The position numbers and the translations under genes are program-made. A stretch of 64,000 bases of DNA from Calothrix sp. NIES-4105. GTDB lineage: Bacteria; Cyanobacteriota; Cyanobacteriia; Cyanobacteriales; Nostocaceae. The notes under the pieces are model-generated. The model saw nothing but the letters and a program-made list of their open reading frames with translations. It was not told where the DNA came from and searched no databases. Below, in pieces: positions 15,822 to 44,699 of this stretch. The stretch's first letter is position 1. The number at the start of each line of letters is the position of its first letter. The stretch is from NCBI RefSeq assembly GCF_002368415.1, contig NZ_AP018290.1, forward strand, positions 1,553,470 to 1,617,469, in the 5' to 3' direction.

Positions 15822-16361
15822 ATGCATCAAACCTTAATAGATAGGTATATTGAGCCACTTAATTTAAGTGCTTTTCAGAGAATTATATTAACAACTGATG
15901 GTACATTGACGGAAATATTAGAAGCTTATTTATTGGAAAAAATTCAATTAGTAAAATTATCAGAAAAGTTTGTTAAAACTATGAAATATATTCCAGCATT
16001 AGACTTGGATGTTGACACTCAAGTAATTGAGAGAAAAATCTTATTACAAGGAAAAATTAGCCTGAAAAATTTTATTTATGCTGAATCAATAATTGTACCT
16101 GAAAGACTAGATGCCAAGTTAAAGTCCAGACTAATCCAGTCGCAGGAACCGATGGGTAGGCTCTGGTTAGAACATAAACTTGAGACATTTAAAGAAATAA
16201 TCGATTCAGCTATAGAAATAGCTGAAGACTTATCGGAGTTTTTTAATATAGCAAGAGAAGACAAAATACTGTCTCGTACTTATAGAGTTTTTTCTAACAA
16301 AAAGCCTATAATAATGATTACAGAAAAATTTCCCGAAAGCTATTTTGCGAAAGGAATTTAA
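15822..16361 (+). CDS. Chorismate lyase family protein (4-hydroxybenzoate former)
   Basis: 179 aa, the usual length of the UbiC-like/DUF98 chorismate lyase family. Visible family features are the N-terminal LTTDGTLTEILEAYLLEKI, the central RKILLQGK (conserved Arg of the active site) and the C-terminal RLWLEHKLETFKEI. The enzyme converts chorismate to 4-hydroxybenzoate and pyruvate. It is the first gene of a plus-strand run continuing with an AMP-ligase, a carrier protein and two NRPSs, so I infer that its product is the aromatic starter of the peptide rather than a plastoquinone precursor. It starts at ATG 15822. The gene is more AT-rich than the NRPS genes, like its two downstream neighbours, which hints that the three-gene loading cassette has a separate history. 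The family call is solid; the starter-unit role is inference. Confidence 0.85.
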   Translation: MHQTLIDRYIEPLNLSAFQRIILTTDGTLTEILEAYLLEKIQLVKLSEKFVKTMKYIPALDLDVDTQVIERKILLQGKISLKNFIYAESIIVPERLDAKLKSRLIQSQEPMGRLWLEHKLETFKEIIDSAIEIAEDLSEFFNIAREDKILSRTYRVFSNKKPIIMITEKFPESYFAKGI

Positions 16362-16486
16362 TCATTTAATTAACTATTAGCTAAATTCTGCAAATAATTA
16401 AGTTAGTAAAATCAGACAAATGCAATTTATAAATAAATGCAAAGTAAGTTGCTAAAACCTATATAATTTTAATATTTGAGGTAACA

Positions 16487-18049
16487 ATGTTAGAAAATAG
16501 GCTTGTTGAAATTGTTAAAAACTATCCTGAAAAAACTGCAATCGCTTATGATAAATTAAGGATTAGCTATCGAGAATTTTATGCTAGTATTCAACATTTA
16601 AGTAACCATCTAAAAACGATTGATATCGTTACTAGTGACTGTATAGCGTTAATTTTGCCTAACAGCCCAGAATTTGCGATTGCTTTTAATGCTACTCTTA
16701 AACTGGAAGCGATAGTTTTGCCAATTAATCCTCTCCTTAAAGAAGAAGAACTTAGCTACTACATTATTGACAGCAATGCTAGTGCAATTATTACCGATAG
16801 TAATCATGCTGAATTTTGCCGTCATATCATCTCAAAAACAAACAAGAAAATAGAATTAATTGTCCTTGATGATATTTGTTTGTTTACCAAAGAAGCAGAT
16901 AAATCAATTACTACGGAAAGTATACCCATAATTACAGATAATATCTCACCTTTTAAAGGAGATGCTCTTTATCAATATTCCTCTGGTTCTACGGGTAGAC
17001 CTAAAAGAGTATGTAGAACTCAAAGTAATTTATATCACGAATTTATAAACTTTACTGAAACCACTAATATATCTCCATCCGATAATATTTTATGTATAGT
17101 GCCACTGTATCACGCGCATGGTTTAGGAAATTGCTTGTTAGCTGCTATACATAACGGCGCCACTTTGGTGATTTTAGAACAAGTTTCAAATCAAGGAAAA
17201 ACCGTTGAAGTGCCATTTGTTTTTAGACGTTCGAGGGTATTAGAACTTATAGAAAAAGAGAAAATTACTATTTTACCAGGTGTTCCTTATATTTTTAACA
17301 CCCTAGCAGAAACACCAATTGAAACTGAAGTTGATATTTCCACACTAAAACTATGTTTTTGTGCAGGTAACTTTCTATCAAAAGATATTTTTGATAAATT
17401 TATTCAGAGATTTGGCATTCCTGTGAGACAACTTTATGGTTGTACAGAAGCTGGTTCTGTTGCAATTAATTTAGATGAAAACATAAAAACTACCTATGAT
17501 TCTGTAGGTTTTCCTTTAAAAAATATTGACATTAAAATTATTGATAATGCAGGAAAAGAACTACCAAATGGAAGTATTGGAGAGATAGTTATCAAAAGTC
17601 AAGCTCTGACTACAGGATATTGTAACAAACCAGAACTAAATCAACAGGTATTTCAAAATGGGTCGTTTTTAACTGGGGATTTAGGTAAGAAAGATGAAGT
17701 TGGGCGTGTTTATGTTACTGGTAGAAAGCAAATCTTCATTGATACAGGAGGTCACAAAGTTGATCCACTAGAAATAGAAAATATCTTGATAACTCATAAT
17801 CAAGTTAAAGAAGCTGTCGTTGTTGGCATCAAAGGTTTGTATGCAGGAGAGATTATCAAGGCAGTAATCGTACCTCAAAACGGAGGCATTTGTCAAGAAA
17901 AAGATATTTTATCTTACTGTAAAGACAAGTTAGCTGATTTTAAAGTACCGAAAATTGTCGAATTTCGTAATGAGATTCCCAAAAGCCCATTAGGCAAGGT
18001 ATTAAGAAAGAACTTAGTTGATAATTTCTCACAACCTGTAAGCTCATGA
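16487..18049 (+). CDS. Acyl/aryl AMP-ligase for the NRPS starter unit
   Basis: 520 aa, a stand-alone class I adenylate-forming enzyme. The ATP loop SSGSTGRPK is near residue 164, the A5-like segment LYGCTEAGSV near 324, GYCNKPE and LTGDLG around 380-400, GRKQIFIDTGGHKV near 415, and the C-terminal catalytic Lys motif SPLGKVLRK near 505. It should activate a carboxylic acid as acyl-AMP and transfer it to a carrier protein. Placed between a chorismate lyase and a free carrier protein, its most likely substrate is 4-hydroxybenzoate. The ATG at 16487 has GAGG six bases upstream. Its stop overlaps the carrier gene start (ATGA), showing translational coupling. It is shorter and much more diverged than the NRPS A domains in the window. 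The enzyme class is certain; the substrate is inferred from neighbours. Confidence 0.9.
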   Translation: MLENRLVEIVKNYPEKTAIAYDKLRISYREFYASIQHLSNHLKTIDIVTSDCIALILPNSPEFAIAFNATLKLEAIVLPINPLLKEEELSYYIIDSNASAIITDSNHAEFCRHIISKTNKKIELIVLDDICLFTKEADKSITTESIPIITDNISPFKGDALYQYSSGSTGRPKRVCRTQSNLYHEFINFTETTNISPSDNILCIVPLYHAHGLGNCLLAAIHNGATLVILEQVSNQGKTVEVPFVFRRSRVLELIEKEKITILPGVPYIFNTLAETPIETEVDISTLKLCFCAGNFLSKDIFDKFIQRFGIPVRQLYGCTEAGSVAINLDENIKTTYDSVGFPLKNIDIKIIDNAGKELPNGSIGEIVIKSQALTTGYCNKPELNQQVFQNGSFLTGDLGKKDEVGRVYVTGRKQIFIDTGGHKVDPLEIENILITHNQVKEAVVVGIKGLYAGEIIKAVIVPQNGGICQEKDILSYCKDKLADFKVPKIVEFRNEIPKSPLGKVLRKNLVDNFSQPVSS

Positions 18050-18297
18050 AAAATATTGATGTAATTAAACAAGAAACTAAAAGCGTAATTATAAACGTTT
18101 TACCAAATATGAAGAGTGAAGATTTGTCAGACTCAAGCAATCTTTTTAGCATGGGTTTAGATTCTATAAATGCCATGACGCTTGTGCTTAAACTCCAAAA
18201 TAGTTTTGATATTAAATTTGCAGCTAATGATATAAATGCAGAAAATTTTCAAAGCATAGCAACTCTTGTAAAACTTATCCATGAAAAGCAAGGTTGA
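18046..18297 (+). CDS. Free-standing acyl/aryl carrier protein
   Basis: 83 aa, four-helix carrier protein size. The phosphopantetheine site is GLDSINAMTL with Ser40. It overlaps the AMP-ligase stop by four bases (ATGA), so the two are made together, and lies 75 bases before the first NRPS. The expected role is to hold the 4-hydroxybenzoyl (or other aryl) thioester and pass it to the first C domain of the NRPS. There are no other domains. An alternative is a generic ACP for an acyl chain, but no fatty-acid type ligase domain is in the window. Confidence 0.9.
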   Translation: MKNIDVIKQETKSVIINVLPNMKSEDLSDSSNLFSMGLDSINAMTLVLKLQNSFDIKFAANDINAENFQSIATLVKLIHEKQG

Positions 18298-18372
18298 TAA
18301 TTTTTATCAACGATTTTTTGCGAAATTAAAGACTTAAGCATATTCCTAAGAACGTGAATAAAGAAGACTACA

Positions 18373-21300
18373 ATGAGCTATTCTGCTGAAATAAATCCAT
18401 TAGAGTCAAACAAGCCAGTCAAAACAGGAGAAAATATCTGGCAAGCGATTAGAGCCATTCTTGATTTGCAAAATCAAGCTCCAGCGTTGATTCCTGTATC
18501 TCGGAATGAACACCTACCTTTGTCTTTTTCTCAAGAAAGATTATGGTTCCTTTATCAGTTGCAACTAGATAGCTCTACTTATAATGTCTCCTTTGCTTTT
18601 CGCCTTCAGGGTTTGCTAAATGTTTCTGCATTAGAGCATAGTCTCAATGAAATTATCCAACGTCATGAAGTATTGCGAACTAGGTTTTTAGCTTCAGAAA
18701 ACAAGCCTGTTCAGGTAATTGCTCCCAGTCTCTACTTGACGTTACCTGTAGTTAATCTTCATGAACTTCCTGAAAGGGAAAGAGAAACTCAAGTTTTGCA
18801 ACTGGTCAAGAACGAAGTTCAACAACCCTTTAATTTAGAACAAGAAGCGCTGTTGCGGTTTTCCCTAGTGCAGCTATATGAAAATGAATATCTGCTACTC
18901 AGTAGTCTCCACCACATTGTCTTTGATGGCTGGTCAGAAGGTGTTTTGTGGCGCGAACTGACAACCTTGTACACAGCTTTTTCCACTGGCAAACCCTCTC
19001 CTCTGCCTAAATTATCCATTCAGTACGCAGACTTTGCCGTTTGGCAGAGGCAGTGGCTGCAAGGGAAAGTGATGGAGACTCAACTGGAATATTGGAAGCA
19101 ACAATTAGCAGGGGCGCCTCCGCTGCTTCCTCTTCCTACCGACCGAGTGCGCCTACCAATGCAGACAAACCGTGGTGGCAGCGAACACTTTCAGCTTGAT
19201 TATCATCTGACTCAAAAACTCAAAAGCCTCAGCGAAAAGTCAGGCGCTACATTATTTATGACTTTGCTGAGTGGCTTTGTCATCTTACTATCGCGCTACA
19301 GCAATCAAGAAGATATTATCGTCGGCTCTCCAATAGCGAACCGCAACCGTAGCGAAATAGAATCTCTCATCGGCTTTTTTGTCAATATTTTGGTGTTGCG
19401 TACTGACGTTTCTGGGAATCCTAGCTTTTGGGAGTTACTGCAAAGAGTACGCCAAGTGGCTTTAGATGGCTATGCTCACCAAGATGTGCCGTTTGAGCAA
19501 GTGGTAGGAGCTTTGCAGCCAGAAAGAAACCTCAGCTACTCTCCATTGTTTCAGGTAATGTTCATTTTGCAAAATACGCCGCCTGGAAAATTGGAATTGC
19601 CTGGTTTATCTCTAACTCGCTTAGAAATCGAAAACTCGACGGCTAAGTATGATTTAACCTTGTCGATAACGGAGAGTGAGCAGGGACTAAGTGGAAGTTT
19701 AGAGTACAACTGTCACTTATTTGATCAAACTACAATTACCCGGATGGTAGGGCATTTTGTGACATTGCTCGAAGGTATTGTTGTTAACCCAAATGAGCGA
19801 ATTTCGCAATTACCTTTAGTAACAGCAACTGAGCAACAGCAGTTATTAGTGGAGTGGAACAATACTAATGCAGATTATCCCTCTAATAAGTGTATTCATC
19901 AGTTGTTTGAGGAGCAGGTAGAGCGTACCCCGGATGCTGTAGCAGTGGTGTTTGAAGATGTAGAGACGCGACATGTCGCGTCTCTAACATATCAACAATT
20001 GAACTGTCGCGCGAACCAATTGGCGCATTACTTACGCTCGTTAGGCGTAAAACCAGATACGCTGGTAGGTATTTGTGTAGAACGCTCATTAGAAATGGTA
20101 GTGGGAATTTTGGGCATTCTCAAGGCAGGTGGAGCTTATGTACCACTTGACCCAGAGTATCCCCAAGAGCGTTTAAGTTTCATGTTACAAGATGCAGATG
20201 TTTCGATACTTTTGACTCAACAGCAACTGTTTGAAAAATTACCTAGGCATCAAGCGCAGCTTGTTTGTTTAGATACTGACTGGCGCCAAATTTCTCAGTC
20301 GAGCCAAAACAATCCAATCACTGATGTACAAGCTACTAACTTGGCTTATGTGATTTACACTTCAGGTTCTACAGGCCAACCTAAAGGTGTGGCCATGAAT
20401 CAGCTTGCACTTTGCAATTTGATGCTATGGCAACTGCAAAATATGACAATTTCTGGCGGGGCAAAAACACTGCAATTTGCTCCTGTCAGCTTTGATGTTT
20501 CCTTCCAAGAAATGTTTTCTACCTGGTTTTCAGGAGGCACATTGTTCTTAATTGGGGAGGAATTGCGACGAGATGCCTTCGCTTTATTAGGTTTTCTTCA
20601 AGAAAAAGCTGTTGAGAGACTGTTTGTTCCCTTTGTTGCCTTACAGCAACTAGCTGAAGTCGCTGTTGGTAGTGAGTTAGTTAATAGTCATCTGAGAGAA
20701 ATCATTACTGCTGGGGAACAGTTGCAGATTACTCCCGCTATTTCTCAATGGTTAAGTAAACTAACTGATTGTACTTTACACAATCATTATGGACCATCGG
20801 AGAGCCATGTAGTTACCACTTATACTTTGGCTAATTCCGTCAACACTTGGCCGCTACTTCCTCCAATTGGGTGCCCCATTGCTAACACGCAAATCTACGT
20901 CCTAGATAAGCATCTACAGCCTGTACCCGTTGGTGTACCAGGAGAATTGTACATTGGTGGCGCCTCTTTAGCGCGAGGCTACCTAAACCGACCAGAGTTA
21001 ACACTTGAGAAATTTATCCCCAATCCCTTTGGTGCTGACGAGCATTCACGCCTCTACAAAACAGGAGATTTAGTACGTTATTTGCCTGATGGCAATATTG
21101 AATACCTGGGACGTATTGACAAGCAGGTTAAAATTCGAGGCTTCCGTATCGAGTTGGGAGAAATTGAAACATTACTAAATCAACATGCCGATGTGCAAGT
21201 ATCTTGTGTCATCGCGCGCGAAGATAACCCTGGACAGAAGCAGTTAGTCGCCTACATAGTGCCGCAAAAAGAGGTGATACCTACAATGGGTGAACTGCGG

Positions 21301-24300
21301 CAATTCCTGAAAGCCAAACTGCCAGATTACATGATACCCAGTGCTTTTGTCATTTTAGAAGCGCTACCCCTGACTCCCAGCGGTAAAGTAGACCGTCGCG
21401 CCTTGCCTGCACCAGATTTACGTAGTGAAATAGTAGACAAATTTGTTCCACCCCGCAACCCGAACGAGGAAAAACTAGCATTAATTTGGGCACAAGTGCT
21501 GAGGTTAGAGCAAGTAGGCATTCACGATAATTTCTTTGAACTAGGGGGACATTCGCTACTAGCTACCCAAGTAATTTCTCGCTTGCCAGAAGTATTTGGA
21601 ATTTCGTTGCCGTTGCGTTGCTTATTTGAATCACCAACAGTTGCTCAGTTAAGCGAACTCATCTCAAGTACACTTCAAACTGGTTCTAGTTTGACAGTTC
21701 CTGCAATTTTACCTGTTTCCATGAGACAAGATATACCTCTATCTTGGGCACAGGAACGCTTGTGGTTTCTCCATCACTTAGAAGGTGAAAGTGGCGCCTA
21801 CACAATGCCTTTTGCGATGCGTTTGGTGGGGAATCTCAATATCAAAGCTTTGGAAGGGGCTATTAGGGAGATGGTGGGGCGCCATGAAGTTCTGCGTACT
21901 CGCTTTGAGATCAAGCATGATAAGCCAGTACAGGTAATAGTTCCCGATATAACCATAACGTTGCCAGTAGTAGATTTACAAAATGTGGCAGACCCTTGGA
22001 AACAAGTGGAGCAACTAGCAATAAAAGAAGCCTACAAACCATTCGACCTGGCTAAAGACCCTGTGTTGCGGGTCAAGATGTGGCAAGTTGCGACTGATGA
22101 GTATGTACTACTGATAGTTATTCATCACATTGCTGCTGATGGTTGGTCAATAGGCGTTTTGAACCGCGAACTATCTGCCCATTATCGAGCCATTACCACG
22201 GGTAGTGCGGTTGAATTACCAGAGTTATCTGTACAGTATGCTGACTTTACTATTTGGCAGCGCCAATGGTTGACAACTCAAGTACTGGAACGTCAGTTAA
22301 GTTACTGGAAACAACAGTTAGCGGGGGCGCCACCTTTGTTGGAATTACCAACAGATCGCCCACGCCCAGCTATCCAGACTTTTCGAGGAGGTACAGAGCG
22401 GTTTCAAATAGATGCCGAGCTAACTTCTGCGCTTAGACAACTGAGCCACAAGTCTGGCACAACTCTGTTTATGACGCTGCTGACGGGATTTGTCGTGCTA
22501 ATGTCTCGCTACAGTGGACAAACAGACCTTGTAGTTGGCTCCCCAATTGCAAATCGCAACCGCAAAGAAATTGAAGGGTTAATTGGATTTTTTGTCAATA
22601 CTTTGGCACTGAGGTTCGATCTGTCTCAAGAACTTACGTTGAAAGCCTTGCTGGAACAGGTGCTTAAGGTAACTCAAAATGCCTATGAGCATCAGGATTT
22701 ACCCTTCGAGATGTTAGTTGAAGAGTTGCAACTGGAGCGAAACCTGGATCGCAACCCACTGGTGCAAGTTATGTTTGCCCTTCAGAATGCGCCAACCAAC
22801 CCTTGGGATATGCCTGGTTTAAGGGTCGAGAAAATGCCTTGGGGGCTTGAGGCGGTACGGTTTGATCTAGAAGTTCACTTCTGGGAAGTTCCCGAAGGTC
22901 TTGAAGGCTTTTGCTATTACAGCAGCGATTTATTTGATGCGGCAACTATTGCCCGCATGATGAAACATTTCCAGAATTTATTAACGGCGATTGCCAGTAA
23001 CTTAGAACAATCTGTCAGCCAATTACCTCTACTAACAGCACAAGATAGGCAGCAATTGTTAGTAGAGTGGAACAACACCTATACAAATTACCCAAGTGAC
23101 CAATGTATCCATCATTTGTTTGAAGTTCAAGTTGAACGGACTCCTGATGCAGTCGCTGTGGTATTTGAAGATGTACAGACGCGACATGTCACGTCCCTAA
23201 CATATCAGGAGTTGAATGAACGGGCAAATCAATTGGCACATTATCTGCAAGAACTGGGCGTGAAACCAGGTGTGCTGGTGGGCATTTGTGTCGAACGTTC
23301 TGTATCTATGGTGGTCGGGTTATTAGCTATTCTCAAGGCAGGTGGAGCGTATGTACCTTTAGATAGAGAGTATCCTAAAGAGCGTTTAGCCTTCATCATA
23401 GAAGACACTCAGATATCGGTGCTGTTGACAATGCAGAAATTCGCCGATGTTATTCCCAAAAACCTAACGCGCGTCGTTTGTTATGATACCTATGCAGCAG
23501 CAATTGCTCTCTTAAGCAAGCAAAACCCCACGGCGAAAGTGACATCTGATAATCTCGCTTATGTCATCTACACTTCAGGTTCAACGGGTCAACCCAAAGG
23601 AGTTGCTGTTAATCACCGATCAATAAACCGCTTGGTAATCAACACAAACTACATCAACATAGAACCAAAAGATGTAATTGCACAAGCCTCAAATTACGCT
23701 TTCGACGCTGCTACCTTTGAAATTTGGGGAGCGTTACTTAATGGAGCGCGGTTGGTGGGAGTGAGCAAAGAGTTGGCGCTTTCACCCAAAGACTTTGCAA
23801 CCTTTATTCGAGCGCAAGGTATCAGTGTCTTATTTTTGACAACTGCCTTGTTTAATCAAATTGCTCAGGAAGTCCCCTCTGCTTTCAATTCAATACGGCA
23901 TCTTCTATTTGGAGGCGAAGCTGTCGATCCTAAATGGGTTAAAGAGGTACTGAAGAATGGGGCGCCACAGCGACTGCTTCATGTTTATGGGCCGACGGAG
24001 AATACAACATTTACTTCTTGGTACTTAGTGCAGGATGTTCCCGAAGACGCTACAACTATTCCCATCGGGCGCCCGATTGCCAACACACAAATCTATTTAT
24101 TAGACCCCCAACTACAGCCAGTTGGCGTTGGTGTACCAGGAGAAATTTATATCGGGGGTGATGGTTTAGCAAAACAATACCTCAATCGACCAGAGCTAAC
24201 TAGCCAAAAATTCATTCTCAATCCGTGTAGAGACGCGATTAATCGCGTCTCTACGGAAATCTACAAAACTGGAGATAAGGCACGTTACCTGAGTGATGGG

Positions 24301-35100: not shown

Positions 35101-38100
35101 ATACCACCTACTCTACATTTACCTTGGTAGAAAAAGGGGCGAGTGACTCACCGACCATCGGGCGCCCAATTTATAACACACAAATTTACATCCTTGACCA
35201 ATATCTACAGCCAGTGCCGATAGGTATACCAGGAGAGTTACACATTGGTGGTGCAGGATTGGCACGAGGCTACTTAAACCGTCCAGAATTAACACAAGAG
35301 AAATTCATTCCCAACCCCTTTAGCACTAACCCAGATTCGCGCCTTTACAAAACAGGCGACTTAGCCCGCTATTTGCCTGATGGTAATATTGAATACCTGG
35401 GACGCATCGACAATCAGGTAAAAATTCGTGGCTTCCGCATCGAATTGGGAGAAATAGAAACAGTACTGAGTCGGCATGGTGATGTACAAGCATCTTGTGT
35501 TATCGCGCGTGAAGACGCTCCTGGTGATAAACGCCTAATCGCCTACGTAGTACCGCAGCAAGGCTTGGCGCCCACGAGTATCCAGTTGCGCTCCTTCGTT
35601 TCTGCTCAACTGCCACAGTACATGGTGCCACATACCTTTGTCATTCTAGAGTCCTTACCCTTAACTCCTAACGGCAAGGTAAACCGTCGCGCGTTACCTG
35701 CACCACAGTCACATGGGTTACTACAAGAGAGTTTTGTAGCTCCGCGCAATCAAATTGAAGAAATACTGACGCAGATTTGGGCGCAGGTTCTTAGAGTAGA
35801 GCAAGTAGGCATTAATGATAACTTCTTTGAACTAGGTGGAGATTCCATCCTCAGTATTCAAATTATTGCGAAAGCGAAGCAAGCAGGGCTTCAACTGAGT
35901 CTCAAGCAATTATTTGGACATCAAACAATTGCTGAGTTGGCGGCAGTAGCAGGCACAATCAACAATATCGAGGCAGAACAAGGTTTAGTCACGGGCACAT
36001 TACCTCTAACGCCGATTCAGCACTGGTTCTTTGAGCAAAATTTAATACAGCCGCACCACTTTAATCAATCATTTCTGCTGTCAGTTCCATCTAACCTCAA
36101 GCCAGAGCTATTAAAGCAGGCATTGCAGCATTTACTAATACATCATGATGCTCTGCGCTTACGTTTTACACAATCTGAATCAAATTGGCATCAGATTCAC
36201 TCTAATCCTGGCGATTGCGTTGTCTCCCAACAAGATTTATCTACGCTCTCAGAGACTGAGCAACAAGCTGCAATTGAAGCTGGCGCCGCTTCCTTACAAG
36301 CAAGTTTGAATTTGTCAGAAAATCTCGTGCAAGTTGCCTTTTTCGAGTTAGGTGTTGACAAAAGGGCGCGATTACTCATAGTCATCCACCATTTGGTAGT
36401 TGATGGCGTTTCCTGGCGAATTTTATTAGAAGATTTGCAGACAGCTTACCAACAACTTGCTCAAGGTAAAGCAATTGTACTTCCTACTAAGACAACTTCT
36501 TTCAAAAATTGGTCTGAAAAATTAACAGAATATGCACAATCAGATGCCTTAAAATCTGAGGTGGATTACTGGTTAAGTAAATCTCGCTCCTTAGTTTCTC
36601 CCATACCAGTAGACTATGCACGGGGAGCAAACACCGTTGCATCTGCTGCGATAGTATCAGTATCGTTAAATGAAGTAGAAACAAGAGCGTTGTTACAAGA
36701 TGTGCCAAAAGCTTACAACACTCAAATTAACGATGTGCTACTGACTGCCTTGGTACTGGTTTTGGAAAGATGGACTAACTCAAGCTCTGTACTATTTAAC
36801 CTAGAAGGTCATGGGCGGGAAGATATTATTGATGGTGTGGATTTGTCACGCACCATCGGTTGGTTTACAACAATTTTCCCTGTGCTTGTAGAATTGGGAG
36901 TGACAGACAACAACATAGCTGATGTCTTAAAATCTGTCAAAGAACAACTGCGCGCGATTCCTAACAAGGGAATTGGCTACGGCTTACTGCGCTATCTGAG
37001 TCAAGATACAGAAATTGCTGCCCAACTAAAGGCGTTTCCTCAAGCAGAAATTAGCTTCAATTATTTAGGTCAATTCGATCAAGTTCTCAATACATCTTCT
37101 TGGATGCAACTAGCTAGTGAGTCTGCTGGAGTTGAGCATAGTTTAGATAATAACCGCGCTCATCTGTTAGACATCAACAGCATCATTTCTGGAGAACAAC
37201 TGCAAATAAATTGGATTTACAGTACAAATGCCCATCAGCGCGCGACAATTGAGAATTTAGCACAAGAATTTGTCAAAACATTGCGAGGACTAATTGCTCA
37301 TTGTTTAGCTCCACAAAACAGAGGATATACACCTTCAGATTTCTCATTAGTTGAGCTTAGTCAACAAAAACTAGACCAACTGTTAGCAAGCTCTGCACTA
37401 AAACAAGGACTAGACCAAACTAACTGGCAAAATATTGAGGATATTTATCCGCTCTCTGGTATGCAACAGGGTATGCTGTTTGAGAGTTTGTATGCTCCAG
37501 ACTCAGGAGTATATTTTGAGCAGTTATGTTGTACTTTAGCAGGGAAGTTGGACGTAAAAGCATTTGAAAAAGCTTGGCAGCAGGTCGTAGCGCGGCATTC
37601 AATTTTGCGGACTGCTTTTGTTTGGGAGCAATTGACCCAGCCACTTCAAGTAGTGTATCGGCAGATCAAAGTTACTGTAGAGACGCATAACTGGCAAGAA
37701 CTATCTGCACAAGAGCAGCAACAGCAATTAAAGGTTTTCTTGCAGTCACAGCGACAACAAGGCTTCCAATTGTCTACTGCACCGTTAATGCGTCTTAATC
37801 TTATCCAGTTGAGTGCCGATAGTTATCAATTTGTTTGGAACCATCATCACTTATTGCTGGATGGCTGGTCGTTACCTTTGGTTCTCAAAGATCTATTGTA
37901 CTTTTATCAAGCAATTTCTCAGGGTGAAAGTTTACACTATCAACCAGCTGCAAACTACCGCAACTATATCGCTTGGTTACAAAAACAAGACTTAGAGCTA
38001 GCTGAACGATTCTGGAAGCGAAAACTTCAAGGTTTTACCGCTCCTACTCCTCTAACAGTCGATAAACTATTGCCAACCCGGAAAAATGACAACGTTAGCT

Positions 38101-41100
38101 ATAGTGAACAGCAAATTCAGTTAACGATACCAGCAACAGCTGCAATTCAGTCTTTTGCACGACAGCATCAATTAACAATCAGTAATTTAATACAGGCAAC
38201 TTGGGCAATACTTTTGTATCGCTATAGCCAAGAAACAGATGTAGTTTTTGGCGCCACTGTGTCTGGTCGTCCAGCATCTCTTGTTGGTGTTGAGTCGATG
38301 GTAGGGCTATTTATTAACACATTGCCAGTACGAGTTCAAATTTCAGCAAACACCCAACTGCTGGATTTGTTAAAGGATTTACAGACGCAGCAAGTTGAGT
38401 CCGAGCAATACTCATATAGTTCATTGGCAGATATTCAAGGTCTTAGTGAAGTTTCTAGGGGAACGTCTTTATTCGAGAGCATTGTTGTCTTCGAGAATTA
38501 TCCAGTTGATACGGCACTGCAATCGCACAATTACGGTTTTTCCATAGACAGTATTCACGGCATCGAACAAACTAATTTTCCTCTAACTGTAGTCGCTATG
38601 GCTCGCGAGCAATTGTTGACGAAGATTAGCTACGATACGAGCCGATTTGATGATGCGACGATTGCTCGGATGTTGGGTCATTTCCAAACATTGCTTGAAG
38701 GTATTGTTACTAACCCTATTCAACAAATTTGGCAATTGCCACTGGTGACAGAAGCTGATCAACAGCAGTTGTTAGTTGAATGGAACAATACTCAAGCGGA
38801 TTATTCTCAGGGTAAATCTATACATCAGTTGTTTGAGGAGCAGGTTCAGCGCACCCCTGATGCTGTGGCAATTGTGTATGAAAATCAACAACTTACCTAC
38901 AGAGAATTAAATTGTCGTGCTAACCAGTTAGCGCACTACTTGCAGTCTTTGGGCGTGGGAGCAGACGTGCTGGTTGGGTTGTGTGTGGAACGCTCACTAG
39001 AGATGGTGGTGGGACTACTTGGCATTCTCAAAGCGGGTGGAGCTTATGTACCCTTAGACCCAACATATCCCCAAGAACGCTTGGCTTATATGCTGAATGA
39101 TTCACAGGTGCCAGTACTAGTGAGTCAAGAGAAATTGGTGACTAGTTTGCCGGAAAATAAAGCATATGTAGTATGCTTAGATACAAACTGGGAAGATATA
39201 TCTATCGAAAGCAAAGATAATCCCATTAGTAATTTGACAACTGATAACCTAGCTTATGTCATTTACACCTCCGGCTCAACAGGTCAACCGAAGGGCACTT
39301 TAGTCAACCACCATAATGTTGTGCGTTTATTTGCAGCCACAAATTGGTATAACTTCAATCAAGATGATGTATGGACACTGTTCCACTCTTACGCCTTCGA
39401 CTTTTCCGTGTGGGAAATTTGGGGTGCTTTGCTTTATGGTGGAAAACTGGTTGTAGTGCCATACTTAGTGACGCGCGAGCCTGAATCCTTCTATCAGTTC
39501 TTGTGTACTGAAAAAGTAACAGTTCTTAATCAAACACCTTCAGCCTTCCGCCAGTTGATTCAAGCCGAACAATCAATTGCAACTAGTAGCGATTTGAAGT
39601 TACGCTTGGTAATTTTTGGTGGAGAAGCCTTAGAACTGAAGAGTTTGCAGCCTTGGTTTGAGCGACATGGCGACAAGATGCCACAATTAGTTAATATGTA
39701 CGGAATTACAGAAACCACTGTACATGTTACCTATCGCCCCTTAAGTAAAGCCGATTTGAATGGCACGGCAAGTGTAATTGGTCGTCCGATTCCCGACTTA
39801 CAGATGTATGTGCTGGATGAATATAAACAGCCTGTACCAATTGGCGTTCCAGGCGAGATGTACGTTGGCGGTGCTGGGGTAACGCGCGGCTATCTCAATC
39901 GTCCTGAATTGACACAACAACGGTTTATCTCTAATCCTTTTAGTAACAACCCCCAAGCGCGACTATACAAAACAGGAGATAAAGCGCGTTATTTACCCAA
40001 CGGCGAGTTAGAGTATTTAGGACGCATCGACAATCAAGTAAAAATTCGAGGCTTCCGCATTGAGTTGGGAGAAATTGAGGCATTACTCGCGCAACACCCA
40101 GACGTTTGGGAAAATGTGGTGATGGTACGAGAGGATGAACCAGGCAATAAACGTCTAGTGGCTTACGTAGTGCCGAACGTGGAACAATCTCTAAAAGTAT
40201 CAGAACTACGTCGCTTGCTTAAACAAAAGCTGCCAGATTACATGGTGCCGAGTGCCTTTGTAGAGTTAAAAGCTCTGCCACTGACAGCAAACGGGAAAGT
40301 AGACCGTCGTGCATTACCTGCACCTGACAGTGCAAGACCAGAACTAGAAGATGTTTTTGTCGCTCCTAATACTCCAGAAGAAAAAATATTAGCTGCTATA
40401 TGGGCTAAGGTTCTTGGTGTTGAGCAAGTAGGTATTAATGATAACTTCTTTGCTTTAGGTGGGGATTCGATCCGTAGTATTCAAGTGCTGTCTCAAGCTA
40501 AAGAAAAAGGTTTGAATTTCTCTATACAACAACTATTCCAACATCAAACGATTCGCGAGCTAATCCAAGAACTTAAAACTCAAGAACTTAAAACCCAAGA
40601 ACAAAATCTCACAAAATTAGAAGCAACTCAACCATTGAGCTTGATTTCTCAAGCAGACAAACAACAGTTAGCTAATGGTATAGAGGATGCCTATCCCCTT
40701 GCTATGCTGCAAATGGGAATGCTCTACCACAGTGAGTACAACAAAGATGGTGCATTGTACCATGAAATTAGCAGCTTCCATCTCAAAACCCCTCTTAATG
40801 TTCAACTTTTGCAAGTCGCCGTCCAAGATTTAGCTAATCATCACGCTGTACTGCGGACTTCGTTTGATCTAAGTAACTTCAGTATTGCGTTGCAACTGGT
40901 TCATCAGCAAGTTGAGGTTCCCTTGCAAGTGGAGGATTGGCGCCATTTAAATCATTCTGAGCAAGAAGATGCATTAGCTGCTTGGTTTGAAGCCGAAAAG
41001 AAACGGCATTTTGATTGGACTCGTCCTCCCTTATTACGCTTCTATGTTCATCGCCGTACACATGAGACATTTAATTTGACATTGAGCTGCCACCACGCCA

Positions 41101-44100
41101 TTTTGGATGGGTGGAGTGTCTCCTCTATGATGACTGAGTTGTTTAGTCGTTACTTATCACTTTTAGGCGAACAAGTCGATTTTATATCGCCACCATTAAG
41201 CATTACATACCGAGATTTTGTAGCCTTAGAGCAACAAGCGCTTGCCTCGTCGGAAGTTCAGCGCTACTGGAGTGAAAAGTTAAATGACAGCACTTTTACC
41301 AAGTTGCCTCCCTGGTCTTCTGTGCCAACAAACACTGATGTTCGGGAAGTTGGTATACAGGAGGTAACTTTATCCCCTAAAATTTGTGAAGGCTTAAAAC
41401 AACTGGCTCAGTCCGCAGAAGTTCCACTTAAGAGTGTGCTGTTGGCTGCCCACCTACGAGTGTTAAATCTCCTAAGCGGTCAGTCAGATGTACTAACGGG
41501 TTTAGTAGCCAACGGGCGCCCCGAACAAAGCGATGGCGAACGAGTCTTGGGTCTATTCCTCAATACTTTGCCATTCCGCGCGCAATTAGCTGGGGGTACT
41601 TGGATCGACCTAGTACGGCAAGTATTTGCAGCAGAGCGAGAAATGTTACCACATCGTCGCTATCCACTAGCTGAAATTCAGAGGAGTTTGGGGGGTGAGC
41701 CTCTGTTTGAGACGGCGTTTAACTTTGTGCATTTTCATGTTTACCAACAGGTGTTGGCACTCGATAATTTGCAGCTACTGGGTGTAAAGTTTTTTGAGCA
41801 AACCAATTTCACTTTTGCCGCTCAGTTTAGTGTTAATCCCAAGTCGTCTGAGGTAGAATTACAACTTCAGTACGATGCCTTAAAGTTATGTCCTGAACAA
41901 ATTAACAGGATTGGTGAATACTATCTCAATGCTCTGGTTGCAATGGCATACCAGCCACAAGGACGCTACGAGTTGCACTCTCTTGTTTCTGAACAAGAGC
42001 AACACCAGTTATTAGTGGAGTGGAACCATACTCAAGCAGATTACTCTCAAGATAAGTCTATCCATGAGTTATTTGAAGCGCAGTCTTTGAGTACCCCAGA
42101 TGCAGTAGCAGTGGTATGTGACAATCAACAACTGACTTATCAGCAGTTGAATTATCGGGCTAATCAATTAGCGCATTACTTGCGCTCATTGGGTGTGGGC
42201 GCAGATGTGCTGGTTGGTTTGTGTGTGGAACGTTCATTAGATATGTTGGTGGGATTACTTGGCATTCTCAAGGCGGGTGGAGCTTACTTGCCACTTGACC
42301 CAAGCTACCCCCAAGACCGCTTGAGCTTTATGGTAGAAGATGCTCAAGTTCCGTTGCTAATAACCCAGCAGCATCTTGTGGAAAGACTACCTGAAGATCA
42401 AAGACAGCTTGTTTGCTTGGATAGCGACTGGCATCTAATCTCTGAGCATAGCCAGGAAAATCCCATCACTGGTGTGCAAGCAACTAACTTGGCTTATGTA
42501 ATTTATACCTCTGGTTCTACAGGCAGATCCAAAGGGGTGATGATCCAGCATGGTGCGATCGCCAACCACTGCTGTATTATGCAAGAGGCTTTTGCACTTG
42601 TGCCGACCGATCGTGTACTCCAGTTTTCCTCAATCAACTTCGATCCTTCACTAGAGCAGATATTTCTTCCACTAATGGTTGGCGCTACCTTGCTAGTGCG
42701 AGGTTCGGATGTATGGACTCCGGCAGAGTTATATAAAATAATTTTGGATTTTGGACTTACTGTCGTTAATCTCCCAACAGCTTATTGGCAACAATTGGCT
42801 CAAGAGGTCAAAACACAAGTACCAAATGAGAACAGCCAACTTAGACTTGTAATTGTTGGTGGGGAAGTAATGTTACCCGAATATGTTGCTCTTTGGCAAC
42901 AAAGCCCTATTTCTGGTGTTCGTCTACTCAACGCTTATGGACCTACAGAGGCAACCATCACAGCAACACTGTTTGAAATTCCTCCCCAGTTTAGTGAAAA
43001 CACAAATCTCAAAACAATTCCTATTGGCGGTCCTTTAATTAACAAAACTGCATATATTCTGGACTCTCACCTACAACCAGTACCTGTGGGTGTGCCTGGA
43101 GAGTTACACATTGGTGGCGCCTGTTTGGCACTCGGTTACCTCAACCGTCCAGAGTTAACACAAGAGAAATTCATCCCTAACCCCTTTAGCAATGACCCAG
43201 ATTCGCGCCTCTATAAAACAGGGGACTTAGCCTGCTATTTGCCGGATGGCAACATCGAATACTTAGGACGCATCGACAATCAGGTAAAAATTCGTGGCTT
43301 CCGAATTGAGTTAGGAGAAATCGAAGCCGTACTGAGCCAACACAGCAATGTGCAAGCATCTTGTGTCATCGTCCGCGAAGATAGCCCAGGTGAGAAGCGC
43401 TTAGTTGCTTACGTGGCGCCGCATCAGCACTGTACACCAACAATTAGCGAACTGCGCCATTTCCTAAAAACAAAGCTGCCAGAGTACATGATACCCAATG
43501 GTTTAATTATTTTAGAAGCCCTGCCACTAACTCCTAACGGCAAAATAGACCGTCGCGCGTTGCCTGCATTTTCCCACAACAGTGACTTGGACAAATTTGT
43601 TGCACCTCGTAACCAATTAGAACTGCAACTAGCCCAACTTTGGTCAAAGATTTTAAAAGTTGACAAGGTGGGAGTACAAGATAACTTTTTTGACCTCGGT
43701 GGTCATTCCCTTTTAGCTTTGTACTTAATGGCTCAAATTAAACAGCAGTTTGGTAAAGATGTGAGTTTAGCAACTCTCCTTCAAAATCCAACTATTGAAC
43801 AATTGGGGACAATTGTGCAAAAGGATTTGGATGACTCTAATAAGTCTTGTTTGGTAGCAATTCAACCAAACGGTTCTAAGCCACCTTTGTTTTGCCTTCC
43901 AGGAGCTGGTGGCACTCCTTTCTACTTGTATAACTTGGCGCGTTGTTTAGGACAAGACCAACCATTCTACAGTTTCCAAGCAAATAGCCTTTCGGGAGGA
44001 TTAGAACCAATCACGCAAGTTGAGGATATAGCCGCCCAGTATATTCAAGCACTACAGGTTGTTCAGCCACAAGGGCCGTATTTTTTAGCAGGACATTCTT

Positions 44101-44699
44101 TTGGAGGTAAAGTAGCCTTTGAAATGGCGCAGCAGTTACTTGACAAAGGACACGAGGTTGCTTTAGTTGCTATTCTTGATAGTACAGCACCTTTTGATCA
44201 GGCAAAGCCATTAGGTTTTGATTGGGATAATGCTAGATGGCTGGCTGAATTTGCTAAATCAATAGAACGTTTTTTAGCAAAGAACTTGGATATTTCTTAC
44301 GATACTCTTCAATCTTTGGTTTGGGAAGAACAACTGGAATATGTTCTACAGCATTTAAAAATGGTTAACATCCTGCCTCCCAATGCTGATAATACCCAGC
44401 TTAACAACCTAGTGCAAGTTTTTAAGACTAACTCTGTAATTAATTATGTGCCACAACAGGTTTATCCAACCCCAATTACTCTGTTGCGCTCCAGTGAGAC
44501 TTCTTTTGAGGAACCTACTAGTGAGTTACCTTCTGAGATTTTACAGGATTCGGCTTGGGGCTGGGGTAAGTTTTCTGCTGAACCAGTGGATGTCTATTTT
44601 GCCCCAGGCAACCATACTACAATGATGACTCCACCTCACGTTCAGGTTTTAGCAGAACGTTTGAGAGCTTGCATCGAGCAAGCACAAGCAAACATCTAA
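26184..44699 (+). CDS. Giant NRPS, five modules with E domain and thioesterase
   Basis: 6171 aa, two bases after the previous stop. Residues 1-57 are a TubC-type docking domain (SIELETDGDRLRCHAPEG). Then, with approximate residues: C1 78, A1 539-1036 (D-F-W-N-I-G-M-V-H-K, Thr), PCP 1092; C2 1156, A2 1619 (D-A-W-F-L-G-N-V-V-K, Leu), PCP 2153; C3 2218, A3 2680 (D-L-F-N-N-A-L-T-Y-K, Ala), PCP 3219, epimerase 3275-3703 (HHLVVDGVS); C4 3755 (HHHLLLDGWS, D-acceptor type), A4 4215 (Thr code again), PCP 4762; C5 4836 (CHHAILDGWS, divergent), A5 5295 (D-P-E-N-I-G-A-I-T-K, unassigned), PCP 5841; thioesterase from 5902 with GHSFGG (Ser about 5972) and GNHTTM. It should add Thr-Leu-D-Ala-Thr-X and release the chain, perhaps as a ring closed on a Thr hydroxyl. 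A1 and A4 are almost identical over long stretches. Codes were read by eye. Confidence 0.95.
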   Translation: MANSTFEFVRHLTNLSIELETDGDRLRCHAPEGVLIPTLRQEIAGRKAEIILFLQQAKQVKTSYQLPIQRVPRDGELPLSFAQQRLWFLHHLSPDSRSYNMLDVQRLNGLLNVVALEQSLSELIGRHEVLRTTFPTVDGKPVQVIAPPTALTLPIYNLQELSAQQQIDQIQQITKSLASKPFDLAVGPLVQFTLLQLSEQEYVLLLKMHHIIYDGWSLNIFKRELSQLYAAFAQGLPYPLPELPIQYADFAVWQRQWLTGEVLDRQLNYWQQQLADAPAVIELPTDRPRPPAQSFRGGVERFQLDRNLTQRLKQLSQESDSTLFMTLLAAFLVLISRYSRQLDIVVGSPIANRNNKSVEQLIGFFANTLALRGDLSGNPSFADFLAQVRQTTLSAYAHQDLPFEMLVEKLQPDRDLSRNPLVQVMFSLQNASQSFWDLPGLTTQKISLPVDEMVRFDLEVNYWEVSGGLEGIWSYSTDLFDAATITHIAQNFQTLLQAIVANPKAGIAELPLLTTAERHQLLGEWNNTQVDYYQDKCIHQLFEEQVQRTPDAVAVVFQDVQTRLIASLTYQQLNCRANQLAHYLRSLGVGADVLVGLCAERSLEMMVGLLAILKAGGAYVPLDPDYPTERLSFMLEDAQVSVLLGQQQFIESLPKHHARVVCLDTDWEKIAQSESNLTNITAPNNLAYVIYTSGSTGKPKGVLVNHSNVVRLFEATNSWYHFNQDDVWTMFHSYAFDFSVWEIWGALLYGGKLVIVPYMVTRSPESFYKLLCQEKVTILNQTPSAFRQLIQAEQSIATSSDLKLRLVIFGGEALELKSLQPWFERHGDKMPQLVNMYGITETTVHVTYRPLSSSDLNGTASVIGRPIPDLQVYVLDEYKQPVPIGVPGEMYVGGAGVARGYLNRPELTQQRFISNPFNNSFIREAKLYKTGDLARYLPNGELEYLGRIDQQVKIRGFRIELGEIEALLAQHPAVWESVVLVTENERDDKRLVAYVVPLEQFPTAQELRQFLANQLPGYMVPNTFVLLESLPLTSNGKLDRRALAKLELQSTLPEKFVAPRTPVEQILAQIWAQVLKVEQVGIHDNFFELGGHSLLATQLLSRIRNIFKVELPLRELFVKATVAELAHLIENLQQQSSKLHAPPILPRAENAELPLSFSQQRLWFLDQLQPLSAFYNIPIAFRLQGTLSRAALKQSLQEIIRRHEALRTNFITVDGQPTQIIQTQTSWALSVVDLQHLSATEQEVASQQLAQQQAIEPFDLAEHALVRATLVVLSETQHILLLCMHHIVSDGWSISVLLSELATLYNTYSQDQPSLGDATQTLAPLPIQYADFAIWQRDWLQGDVLQTQLSYWQQQLKDAPALLSLPTDRPRPAVQTFAGAYEEFALSSELTSGLTELSQQQGVTLFMTLLAAFDTLLYRYTKQEDILVGSPIANRNHSEIEGLIGFFVNTLVMRTNLAGNPSFSELLTRVREIAMDAYAHQDLPFEMLVEALQPERDLSHTPLFQVTFVLQNDSMSQLELTGLTASPLVVKGTAAKFDLTLSMQNTPNGLVGVWEYNTDLFNASTIERMTSHFVTLLEGIVTNPIERISQLPLLTQVEQQQLLVEWNNTRLDYPSDKCIHQLFEEQVQRTPDAVAVVFENQQLTYGELNSRANQLAHYLRSLGVGANVLVGICVERSVEMLVGLLGILKAGGAYVPLDPKYPQERLAFMLEDAQSVLLTQKHLIEKLPEHQAQLICLDTDWKIISQSSHENPISVVQASNLAYVIYTSGSTGQPKGVLVTHQGLLNLVFWHQRAFEITPLDKATQLAGTAFDAAVWELWPYLAAGASIYLVTDETVYSPVDLRDWLISKKITISFLPTPLAEKLLSLEWNDNVALRTMLTGGDKLHHYPSALIPFKVVNNYGPTENTVVTTSGLVDYSEQDNISSPTIGRPIANTQIYILDSYLQPVPIGVPGELHIGGASLALGYLNRPQLTQDKFIPNPFNTDPDSRLYKTGDLARYLSDGNIEYLGRIDNQVKIRGFRIELGEIEAVLNQHSDVQVCCVIDREDTPGEKRLIAYVEPQQGVTPTISELRHFLKAKLPEYMAPNAIVILELLPLTPNGKVDRRALPAPDLHSEDKYVAPRTPIEEILVQIWAQVLKVEQVGIHDNFFELGGHSLLATQLLSRIRNIFKVELPLREFFATATVAELAQLVGQLQQQSLELTVPPILPRAENAQLPLSFAQQRLWFLDQFEPNTALYNIPIALRLVGTLNRAALQQSLQEIIRRHEALRTNFIAVDGQPTQIVTTQTNWEVSLVDLQHLSTAEQEIASQQVAQQQATEPFELATQALVRATLVVLSQTEHVFLVCMHHIVSDGWSMGVFMQELAALYNTYSQGQPSLGDTTQTLAPLPIQYADFALWQKEWLQGDVLQTQLSYWQQQLKDAPALLSLPTDRPRPAVQTFAGAYQKFALSAELTQKLTKLSQEQGVTLFMTLLAAFDTLLYRYTGQEDILVGSPIANRNRSEIEGLIGFFVNTLVLRTNVSGERSFNELLDQVRDMAMDAYAHQDLPFEMLVEALQPERVLSHAPLFQVMFVLENGLMSQLELTGLTVSPLVVESATAKFDLILGMENTPTGLMGAWEYNTDLFDASTIERLTGHFVILLEGIVANPIERISQLPLLTATEQQQLLVEWNNTQADYPSDKCIHQLFEEQVQRTPDAVAVVFEDVQTGQITSLTYQQLNCRANQLANYLRCLGVGADVLVGICVERSIEMLVGILGILKAGGAYVPLDPEYPTERLGFILEDAQVPVLLTQQHLIERLPEHRANFVYLDTNAHKFAQVSEISGASEVKPSNLAYVLYTSGSTGRPKAVAIEHHSPVALVSWAQNVFTLDQLAGVLASTSICFDLSVFEFFVPLSVGGKVIIAQNALHLSTITTANQVTLINTVPSAIAELIREKSLPEQVCTVNLAGEALQNQLVQQIYQHQVKRVFNLYGPSEDTTYSTFTLVEKGASDSPTIGRPIYNTQIYILDQYLQPVPIGIPGELHIGGAGLARGYLNRPELTQEKFIPNPFSTNPDSRLYKTGDLARYLPDGNIEYLGRIDNQVKIRGFRIELGEIETVLSRHGDVQASCVIAREDAPGDKRLIAYVVPQQGLAPTSIQLRSFVSAQLPQYMVPHTFVILESLPLTPNGKVNRRALPAPQSHGLLQESFVAPRNQIEEILTQIWAQVLRVEQVGINDNFFELGGDSILSIQIIAKAKQAGLQLSLKQLFGHQTIAELAAVAGTINNIEAEQGLVTGTLPLTPIQHWFFEQNLIQPHHFNQSFLLSVPSNLKPELLKQALQHLLIHHDALRLRFTQSESNWHQIHSNPGDCVVSQQDLSTLSETEQQAAIEAGAASLQASLNLSENLVQVAFFELGVDKRARLLIVIHHLVVDGVSWRILLEDLQTAYQQLAQGKAIVLPTKTTSFKNWSEKLTEYAQSDALKSEVDYWLSKSRSLVSPIPVDYARGANTVASAAIVSVSLNEVETRALLQDVPKAYNTQINDVLLTALVLVLERWTNSSSVLFNLEGHGREDIIDGVDLSRTIGWFTTIFPVLVELGVTDNNIADVLKSVKEQLRAIPNKGIGYGLLRYLSQDTEIAAQLKAFPQAEISFNYLGQFDQVLNTSSWMQLASESAGVEHSLDNNRAHLLDINSIISGEQLQINWIYSTNAHQRATIENLAQEFVKTLRGLIAHCLAPQNRGYTPSDFSLVELSQQKLDQLLASSALKQGLDQTNWQNIEDIYPLSGMQQGMLFESLYAPDSGVYFEQLCCTLAGKLDVKAFEKAWQQVVARHSILRTAFVWEQLTQPLQVVYRQIKVTVETHNWQELSAQEQQQQLKVFLQSQRQQGFQLSTAPLMRLNLIQLSADSYQFVWNHHHLLLDGWSLPLVLKDLLYFYQAISQGESLHYQPAANYRNYIAWLQKQDLELAERFWKRKLQGFTAPTPLTVDKLLPTRKNDNVSYSEQQIQLTIPATAAIQSFARQHQLTISNLIQATWAILLYRYSQETDVVFGATVSGRPASLVGVESMVGLFINTLPVRVQISANTQLLDLLKDLQTQQVESEQYSYSSLADIQGLSEVSRGTSLFESIVVFENYPVDTALQSHNYGFSIDSIHGIEQTNFPLTVVAMAREQLLTKISYDTSRFDDATIARMLGHFQTLLEGIVTNPIQQIWQLPLVTEADQQQLLVEWNNTQADYSQGKSIHQLFEEQVQRTPDAVAIVYENQQLTYRELNCRANQLAHYLQSLGVGADVLVGLCVERSLEMVVGLLGILKAGGAYVPLDPTYPQERLAYMLNDSQVPVLVSQEKLVTSLPENKAYVVCLDTNWEDISIESKDNPISNLTTDNLAYVIYTSGSTGQPKGTLVNHHNVVRLFAATNWYNFNQDDVWTLFHSYAFDFSVWEIWGALLYGGKLVVVPYLVTREPESFYQFLCTEKVTVLNQTPSAFRQLIQAEQSIATSSDLKLRLVIFGGEALELKSLQPWFERHGDKMPQLVNMYGITETTVHVTYRPLSKADLNGTASVIGRPIPDLQMYVLDEYKQPVPIGVPGEMYVGGAGVTRGYLNRPELTQQRFISNPFSNNPQARLYKTGDKARYLPNGELEYLGRIDNQVKIRGFRIELGEIEALLAQHPDVWENVVMVREDEPGNKRLVAYVVPNVEQSLKVSELRRLLKQKLPDYMVPSAFVELKALPLTANGKVDRRALPAPDSARPELEDVFVAPNTPEEKILAAIWAKVLGVEQVGINDNFFALGGDSIRSIQVLSQAKEKGLNFSIQQLFQHQTIRELIQELKTQELKTQEQNLTKLEATQPLSLISQADKQQLANGIEDAYPLAMLQMGMLYHSEYNKDGALYHEISSFHLKTPLNVQLLQVAVQDLANHHAVLRTSFDLSNFSIALQLVHQQVEVPLQVEDWRHLNHSEQEDALAAWFEAEKKRHFDWTRPPLLRFYVHRRTHETFNLTLSCHHAILDGWSVSSMMTELFSRYLSLLGEQVDFISPPLSITYRDFVALEQQALASSEVQRYWSEKLNDSTFTKLPPWSSVPTNTDVREVGIQEVTLSPKICEGLKQLAQSAEVPLKSVLLAAHLRVLNLLSGQSDVLTGLVANGRPEQSDGERVLGLFLNTLPFRAQLAGGTWIDLVRQVFAAEREMLPHRRYPLAEIQRSLGGEPLFETAFNFVHFHVYQQVLALDNLQLLGVKFFEQTNFTFAAQFSVNPKSSEVELQLQYDALKLCPEQINRIGEYYLNALVAMAYQPQGRYELHSLVSEQEQHQLLVEWNHTQADYSQDKSIHELFEAQSLSTPDAVAVVCDNQQLTYQQLNYRANQLAHYLRSLGVGADVLVGLCVERSLDMLVGLLGILKAGGAYLPLDPSYPQDRLSFMVEDAQVPLLITQQHLVERLPEDQRQLVCLDSDWHLISEHSQENPITGVQATNLAYVIYTSGSTGRSKGVMIQHGAIANHCCIMQEAFALVPTDRVLQFSSINFDPSLEQIFLPLMVGATLLVRGSDVWTPAELYKIILDFGLTVVNLPTAYWQQLAQEVKTQVPNENSQLRLVIVGGEVMLPEYVALWQQSPISGVRLLNAYGPTEATITATLFEIPPQFSENTNLKTIPIGGPLINKTAYILDSHLQPVPVGVPGELHIGGACLALGYLNRPELTQEKFIPNPFSNDPDSRLYKTGDLACYLPDGNIEYLGRIDNQVKIRGFRIELGEIEAVLSQHSNVQASCVIVREDSPGEKRLVAYVAPHQHCTPTISELRHFLKTKLPEYMIPNGLIILEALPLTPNGKIDRRALPAFSHNSDLDKFVAPRNQLELQLAQLWSKILKVDKVGVQDNFFDLGGHSLLALYLMAQIKQQFGKDVSLATLLQNPTIEQLGTIVQKDLDDSNKSCLVAIQPNGSKPPLFCLPGAGGTPFYLYNLARCLGQDQPFYSFQANSLSGGLEPITQVEDIAAQYIQALQVVQPQGPYFLAGHSFGGKVAFEMAQQLLDKGHEVALVAILDSTAPFDQAKPLGFDWDNARWLAEFAKSIERFLAKNLDISYDTLQSLVWEEQLEYVLQHLKMVNILPPNADNTQLNNLVQVFKTNSVINYVPQQVYPTPITLLRSSETSFEEPTSELPSEILQDSAWGWGKFSAEPVDVYFAPGNHTTMMTPPHVQVLAERLRACIEQAQANI
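27861..27889. repeat. Palindromic element inside NRPS A domain (first Thr module)
   Basis: GTACAGACGCGATTAATCGC followed by GTCTCTAAC, encoding VQTRLIASL at the same A-domain site as the 19960 copy but with ATTAAT rather than ACATGT at the centre. The second Thr module (A4), otherwise near-identical, lacks it. Confidence 0.9.
34290..34318. repeat. Degenerate palindromic element inside NRPS A domain (Ala module)
   Basis: Homologous position to the other copies; encodes VQTGQITSL. The centre has lost its symmetry (GGGGCAGATCACG), showing an old insertion retained in frame. Confidence 0.75.

Follow-up and report, generated by a model that had tools for sequence, protein, structure and literature searches.

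An apparently undescribed cyanobacterial nonribosomal peptide assembly line with a predicted hydroxybenzoate starter

Gene content and domain organization of the locus

The window, a 64-kb stretch of DNA (C1:1553470-1617469 of G000, a genome of 12.04 Mb on 8 contigs), encodes on its plus strand a dedicated copy of chorismate pyruvate-lyase of the Rv2949c-like type (15822..16361, 179 aa; PF01947, 68.1 bits against a family cut-off of 22), a free AMP-ligase predicted to load hydroxybenzoate (16487..18049, 520 aa; AMP-binding and AMP-binding_C by Pfam) and a free, putatively aryl, carrier protein (18046..18297, 83 aa; PP-binding, 42 bits, with the carrier Ser motif), the ligase and carrier ORFs sharing an ATGA overlap. 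These precede two nonribosomal peptide synthetases: NRPS 1 (18373..26181, 2602 aa), organized as C-A(Pro)-T, C-A(Ile/Val)-N-MT-T, and NRPS 2 (26184..44699, 6171 aa), organized as C-A(Thr)-T, C-A(Leu)-T, C-A(Ala)-T-E, C-A(Thr)-T, CmodAA-A(X)-T-TE, both assigned from Pfam matches, profiles built from the window's own domains, and adenylation codes. The lyase, ligase, overlapping free carrier, seven NRPS modules and thioesterase had all been listed by the first-pass annotation, and the ORFs, Pfam matches and profiles bear that list out. The block also extends beyond it to an ABC transporter (44739..46844; PF06472 and PF00005; start codon unsure, with an in-frame ATG at 44817), the likely exporter of the product, which is 79% identical to its counterpart and likewise adjacent in the orthologous cluster of another genome (G139). 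The core block is taken as 15822-46844, the transporter gene being the sole shared flank on the sequence compared in G139.

Pfam identifies C, A, T and MT domains in NRPS 1 and, in four pieces of NRPS 2, T-E/C-C, T-C, A-T and T-TE. The profiles resolve seven modules (C-A-T, C-A-MT-T, C-A-T, C-A-T, C-A-T-E, C-A-T, C-A-T-TE), with one MT domain in module 2 (24658..25362, within A2; Methyltransf_25, 43 bits), one E domain behind the Ala module, module 5 (35979..37388; a Condensation-family match), and one TE (43959..44678) in the whole line. The seeds of the E and TE profiles came from the window itself; the TE label rests on Pfam (PF00975 Thioesterase, 107 bits), and the E label on position and on characteristic E-domain motifs. 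In a tree of 66 C domains, the next one along the line, C6, clusters with those located behind an E domain. HHxxxDG is present in all seven C domains and the E domain, the A3, A5, A7, A8 and A10 motifs in all seven A domains, the carrier Ser in all seven T domains as well as the free carrier, a SAM motif in the MT domain, and GHSFG in the TE. With ordered C-A-T modules, intact motifs and a release domain, the block is, as judged from its sequence, a real, intact and conserved nonribosomal assembly line, and an orphan.

G139, which belongs to another family, carries the orthologous cluster, read on two contigs, with identities to the window of 74% for the lyase, 77% for the ligase, 76% for the carrier and 80-84% for the NRPS pieces; all seven adenylation codes are common to the two in unchanged order. 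Two further genomes, G359 and G342, encode relatives of the ligase (76% identical in both) and of the carrier (69% and 66% identical, respectively) ahead of a different line, with modules for Thr-Leu-Phe, an extra module, Pro, Gln with an E domain, and Ser (G359) or Thr (G342), ending in a TE. The extra module is KS-AT-MT-ACP in G359, the genome from which this domain result comes. Neither G359 nor G342 has a dedicated lyase beside the ligase, and each genome has a pair of PF01947 genes; in G359, one of the pair is about 8 kb away from the ligase.

Both flanks of the block are ordinary anabaenopeptin-type and microviridin-type clusters. On the left (1-11962 on the minus strand, continuing to about G000:C1 1543400) lies an anabaenopeptin-type synthetase cluster with the layout A-T-C-A-T-E / C-A-T / C-A-T-C-A-MT-T / C-A-T-TE and the codes DAFFLGGTF, DTEDIGSVV, DALFLGAVF, DLAFGGCVK, DLFNNALTY and DAWTVAAVC; its layout and four of its six codes closely resemble those of the anabaenopeptin (apt) synthetases in Tables 2 and 3 of PMC9564503, and it is a cluster separate from the assembly line of the window. 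An anabaenopeptin assignment was rejected for the line itself on codes and layout: the AptA-D arrangement of those tables, in which a Lys module and an E domain come second, is absent from 15822-44699 and present in the left neighbour. Between this neighbour and the lyase, on the minus strand (12087-15117), are a laminin-G/patatin fusion gene (12820-15117) and a 130-aa ORF. On the right (47277-51774) is a microviridin-type cluster with a precursor-like ORF (47277-47435) that contains TIKYPSD and ends in TIKYPSDLEDR, two MvdD-like ligases and an ABC transporter. The fusion gene, the 130-aa ORF, the two graspetide (MvdD-like) ligases and the second ABC gene recur by the ends of NRPS genes in G265, G344 and G359, and the laminin-G/patatin fusion is found beside the ligase in G342. 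Farther right (52762-55199) are a phytochelatin-synthase-like gene, an Asp/Glu racemase-like gene and a 251-aa ORF that combines a carrier with just the opening portion of a NAD_binding_4 domain and seems truncated.

Predicted residues, release and dehydration

Adenylation pocket codes, read by aligning each A domain to A1, predict Pro for A1 (DVQFIAHVV), Ile/Val for A2 (DAFFLGVTF), Thr for both A3 and A6 (DFWNIGMVH), Leu for A4 (DAWFLGNVV) and Ala for A5 (DLFNNALTY, which we take to be an Ala code). A published table (PMC2533009) gives Thr and Ile/Val for the codes of A3/A6 and A2, the consulted part of PMC7551626 gives the same Ile/Val code together with Pro/MePro for the near-identical DVQFIAHVA, and that of PMC7524897 gives Leu for the A4 code; none of the codes sought in the consulted part of PMC3640908 was found there. 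The residues read earlier by eye for modules 1-6 agree with these codes, and residues 1-5, the N-methylation and the thioesterase gain support both from the codes and from the near-identical cluster of another family. The last A domain, A7 (42069..43553, DPENIGAIT), falls in a quick tree of 109 A domains into a clade with D[PA]EN[ILV]GAIT and DPEDIGAIT codes, within a wider group that includes Lys-type and Ahp-type domains, and shares five of nine positions with the Ahp code DVENAGVVT tabulated in PMC2533009; its residue is left without assignment and written X. Related lines in G265 and G344 (L138-L141) have the codes DAENIGAIT or DAENLGAIT, then an E domain, then an A-less C-T-TE end; these two genomes are absent from the list of ligase matches described below.

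The thioesterase would most likely release the chain as an ester on the Thr3 hydroxyl, or else as a free acid. Hydrolysis to a linear acid with no ring has an appreciable but lesser chance of being correct: no sequence test applied here separates cyclizing from hydrolysing thioesterases, but the Thr-Leu pair persists throughout the four long lines (the window, G139, G359 and G342) although other modules differ, as would be expected if that Thr closes the ring.

The condensation domain of module 7, C7 (40686..42014), belongs to the dehydrating CmodAA type. In a phmmer comparison with the PDB its best matches are McyA (508 bits) and AmbE (218 bits), followed by other C domains at 167 bits or less; it carries KSVLLAAH, follows a Thr module, and clusters with the C7-like set in the C-domain tree. 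[K/R]SVLLAAH is given as the CmodAA consensus in the consulted text of PMC11342130, dehydration by such domains has been demonstrated biochemically according to the parts of PMC10880069 and PMC11342130 consulted, and the C domains LxaC3, HasO2 and NdaA1 at the Dhb positions of the laxaphycin, hassallidin and nodularin lines are of the same type in the corresponding portion of PMC7524897.

Across 148 genomes, C7-like domains were located at 23 places in 18 genomes; the upstream side was read for 21 of these places, with two left out. Of the 21 domains, 15 have the motif in relaxed form, compared with none of 85 further C domains. With one near copy dropped, 16/20 C7-like domains come after a Thr or Ser code, versus 9/36 other C domains taken from the loci used (Fisher p 1.7e-4, a test in which the related genomes are not independent). 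The four exceptions (L092, L095, L096, L099) follow codes for Pro, Asn (two related genomes) and Gly and all retain a KSVLLAAH-type motif, and the six C7-like domains that lack the motif all follow Thr or Ser; thus, presence of the motif and identity of the preceding residue do not go together, which slightly tempers the case for dehydration.

The first-pass annotation had residue 6 as plain Thr, which is probably wrong, since the C domain downstream is of the CmodAA type and Dhb is predicted. If C7 merely formed a peptide bond, the product would be 4-hydroxybenzoyl-Pro-N-Me-Ile/Val-Thr-Leu-D-Ala-Thr-X, closed on either Thr. The 4/20 C7-like domains that carry the motif behind codes unable to give Dhb or Dha do indicate that the clade is not always dehydrating, but the window's domain is closest to that of McyA, has the full KSVLLAAH and follows Thr, and retention of Thr is unlikely. 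Dehydration of Thr6 to Dhb is most likely, and would leave no Thr hydroxyl other than that of Thr3 for closing the ester. The predicted product is thus 4-hydroxybenzoyl-Pro-N-Me-Ile/Val-Thr-Leu-D-Ala-Dhb-X, perhaps closed on Thr3.

The hydroxybenzoate starter and its wider family

The lyase of the window has 2nwi as its best PDB relative (64 bits). The genome contains two PF01947 matches (209 and 67.9 bits), and the second copy (C1:10298047-10298496) is probably the housekeeping one. In gene order and synteny the locus has the arrangement of an aryl-acid-primed NRPS, with a free ligase and a free carrier ahead of C1 and a gene for aryl-acid formation alongside. In the PDB the ligase scores highest against oxalyl-CoA synthetase (212 bits) and against ligases of the acyl-CoA or 4-coumarate type rather than aryl-AMP ligases, and its sequence by itself is not diagnostic of substrate; hydroxybenzoate is predicted mainly because of the company that the ligase keeps.

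Among 388 genomes of the order, with three candidates scored for each genome listed, 67 match the ligase at threshold, and its clade comprises 28 places in 27 genomes with 48-100% identity (the window's own included), the next matches being at most 35% identical; the ligase is absent from both other genomes of the genus in this set. A contig scan added two loci, a true relative in Nostoc sp. CHAB 5844 (55% identity; L048), where the profiles find nothing but the ligase in 21.5 kb on both strands, and a distant one in Shimia (21%). Matches in a plasmid collection are all below 60% identity, those listed being 30-32% identical.

In the stretches read around all 28 places, 24 contain a chorismate lyase or a Hyg5-like chorismatase gene: the lyase in 19 (one a piece at a contig end), the Hyg5-like gene in seven (its identity checked by Pfam in L034), and both in two. 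Neither gene was found in the stretches read at L019, L022, L030 and L046, among which are G359 and G342; with the CHAB 5844 locus counted in, the tally is 24/29. Half of the loci (14/28, one a piece) have a DAHP synthase relative, eight a Trp_halogenase-like gene and seven a FAD_binding_3 gene. This company and the near-identical cluster in another family support the earlier proposal of aryl priming and lend good, indirect support to a hydroxybenzoate cap. Some of the ligase loci may use 3-hydroxybenzoate, and the trio of the window could in principle load that isomer or a ring-modified acid: Hyg5-like chorismatases are present in a quarter of the loci, an enzyme of this kind supplies the 3-hydroxybenzoate of unantimycins as described in the consulted part of PMC7170507, and the halogenase-like and FAD-binding genes could point to ring modification. 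The window, however, has a chorismate lyase, and the Hyg5-like, halogenase-like and FAD queries match nothing in it, which makes loading of another hydroxybenzoate improbable there.

Priming of the NRPS by the 4-hydroxybenzoyl carrier is favoured by its first condensation domain, C1 (18508..19848), the predicted acceptor of the aryl group. The first acceptor residue is Pro in the window and G139 and Thr in G359 and G342, and yet the C1 domains of the window, G139 and G359 (slightly cut in the last; that of G342, cut by the locus border, was left out) form a clade of their own with 100/100 support in the tree of 66 C domains. Against it, the 22 C domains located behind the carrier are scattered in the tree, which requires three changes (two or more of these being forced), and the three long-line C1 domains stand apart from those of A-less proteins. 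That the trio is an independent small pathway merely situated ahead of an NRPS whose own starter is a different acyl group or a free amino acid, as the short A-less protein following it in most other loci might suggest, is very improbable given the C1 clade, the position of ligase and carrier directly before C1 in 4/4 long lines, and the lack of any other free-standing acyl ligase in the block.

In 18 of the 28 ligase loci (L024-L029, L031-L040, L042 and L045, by profiles; checked by Pfam in L027, L034 and L042) the trio, which in some loci has a Hyg5-like gene in place of the lyase, is followed by a C-T-TE protein that has no A domain. L044 encodes C-A-T-TE, and L045 has a separate C-A-T-TE in addition to its C-T-TE; L023, L041, L043 and L046 reach contig ends, and L030 has ligase and carrier, the next 13 kb that were read being free of C domains. 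Many of the A-less loci include DAHP synthase and some include the Trp_halogenase-like gene (with WVWLIP in L027) and the FAD_binding_3 gene; the C domain of L027 has HHIIVDA in place of HHxxxDG. An evenly balanced proposal is that the window represents one branch of a set of cyanobacterial hydroxybenzoate-loading cassettes (lyase or chorismatase, ligase, free carrier and, in half of the loci, DAHP synthase) plugged into different enzymes, namely the four long NRPS or NRPS-PKS lines and the C-T-TE proteins, for which the second substrate would have to be loaded in trans or be another hydroxybenzoate, with ester formation. The starter cassette is at any rate found attached to different assembly lines. 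No product of the long lines or of the A-less kind appears among the matches listed from open-access literature; the ligase family points to an uncharacterized group of cyanobacterial hydroxybenzoate pathways, and this wider family, mostly found beside A-less proteins, may be more curious than the line of the window itself.

Proposed pathway and comparison with known systems

In the pathway proposed for the window, the lyase would convert chorismate to 4-hydroxybenzoate, which the free ligase would adenylate and load onto the free carrier protein; C1 would move the acyl group onto the Pro of module 1, modules 2-5 would add N-methyl-Ile/Val, Thr, Leu and D-Ala, and module 6 would add Thr, which C7 would dehydrate to Dhb while joining residue X of module 7. 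Ester release by the thioesterase would give a ring of Thr-Leu-D-Ala-Dhb-X with a tail of 4-hydroxybenzoyl-Pro-N-Me-Ile/Val, and the ABC transporter would export it. Taken as a whole, from hydroxybenzoate priming through Dhb formation and thioesterase release to export, this pathway is probably correct. It offers a testable structure for an orphan peptide, with computed ions at 121.028 for the acyl group, 218.081 for HB-Pro, and 345.181 for HB-Pro-N-MeIle or 331.165 for HB-Pro-N-MeVal. For the cyclic product with N-MeIle, the calculated [M+H]+ is 841.445 with Gln as X, 841.482 with Lys and 842.429 with Glu; N-MeVal would lower each value by 14.016 and release as a linear acid would raise it by 18.011, and the residue mass at position 6 would be 83.037 for Dhb as against 101.048 for Thr.

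In mycobacteria, p-hydroxybenzoate initiation depends on Rv2949c and FadD22, and the acyl group passes to a polyketide synthase for glycolipids. The window has a lyase of the same family and the same ligase and carrier logic, but here the predicted recipient is the C domain of an NRPS. The first-pass annotation called the line undescribed, and that description is not contradicted by the open-access full-text literature, where none of the papers listed matched the cap or product; the consulted parts of PMC8073705, PMC12184294 and PMC7503407 describe no matching system. On the strength of this literature search, as distinct from a MIBiG comparison, the assembly line is apparently undescribed, though of a known kind. 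The unantimycin pathway of Streptomyces (Nat-hyg5), to judge from the consulted part of PMC7170507, likewise has a dedicated chorismate enzyme that makes the starter hydroxybenzoate, but that enzyme is a Hyg5 chorismatase yielding 3-hydroxybenzoate, whereas the window, in a cyanobacterium, has an Rv2949c-type lyase with a separate ligase and carrier. Among CmodAA domains, C7 is closest to those of McyA and AmbE by score and is likened to NdaA1, HasO2 and LxaC3 through their description in the literature; no feature examined sets it apart.

A cyanopeptolin synthetase was considered and rejected, because Table 1 of PMC2533009 has an Ahp module (DVENAGVVT) and, behind it, a hydrophobic and then an N-methylated aromatic residue, an order that the codes and module layout of the line do not match. 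The two kinds of line are alike in having Thr, an N-methylated residue, a ring closed by a Thr ester (predicted here) and, in A7, a code near DVENAGVVTK (5/9 positions). They differ in that the window has no Ahp-type module at the ring position and possesses an N-methyltransferase in module 2, a predicted aryl cap and a putatively Dhb-forming condensation domain.
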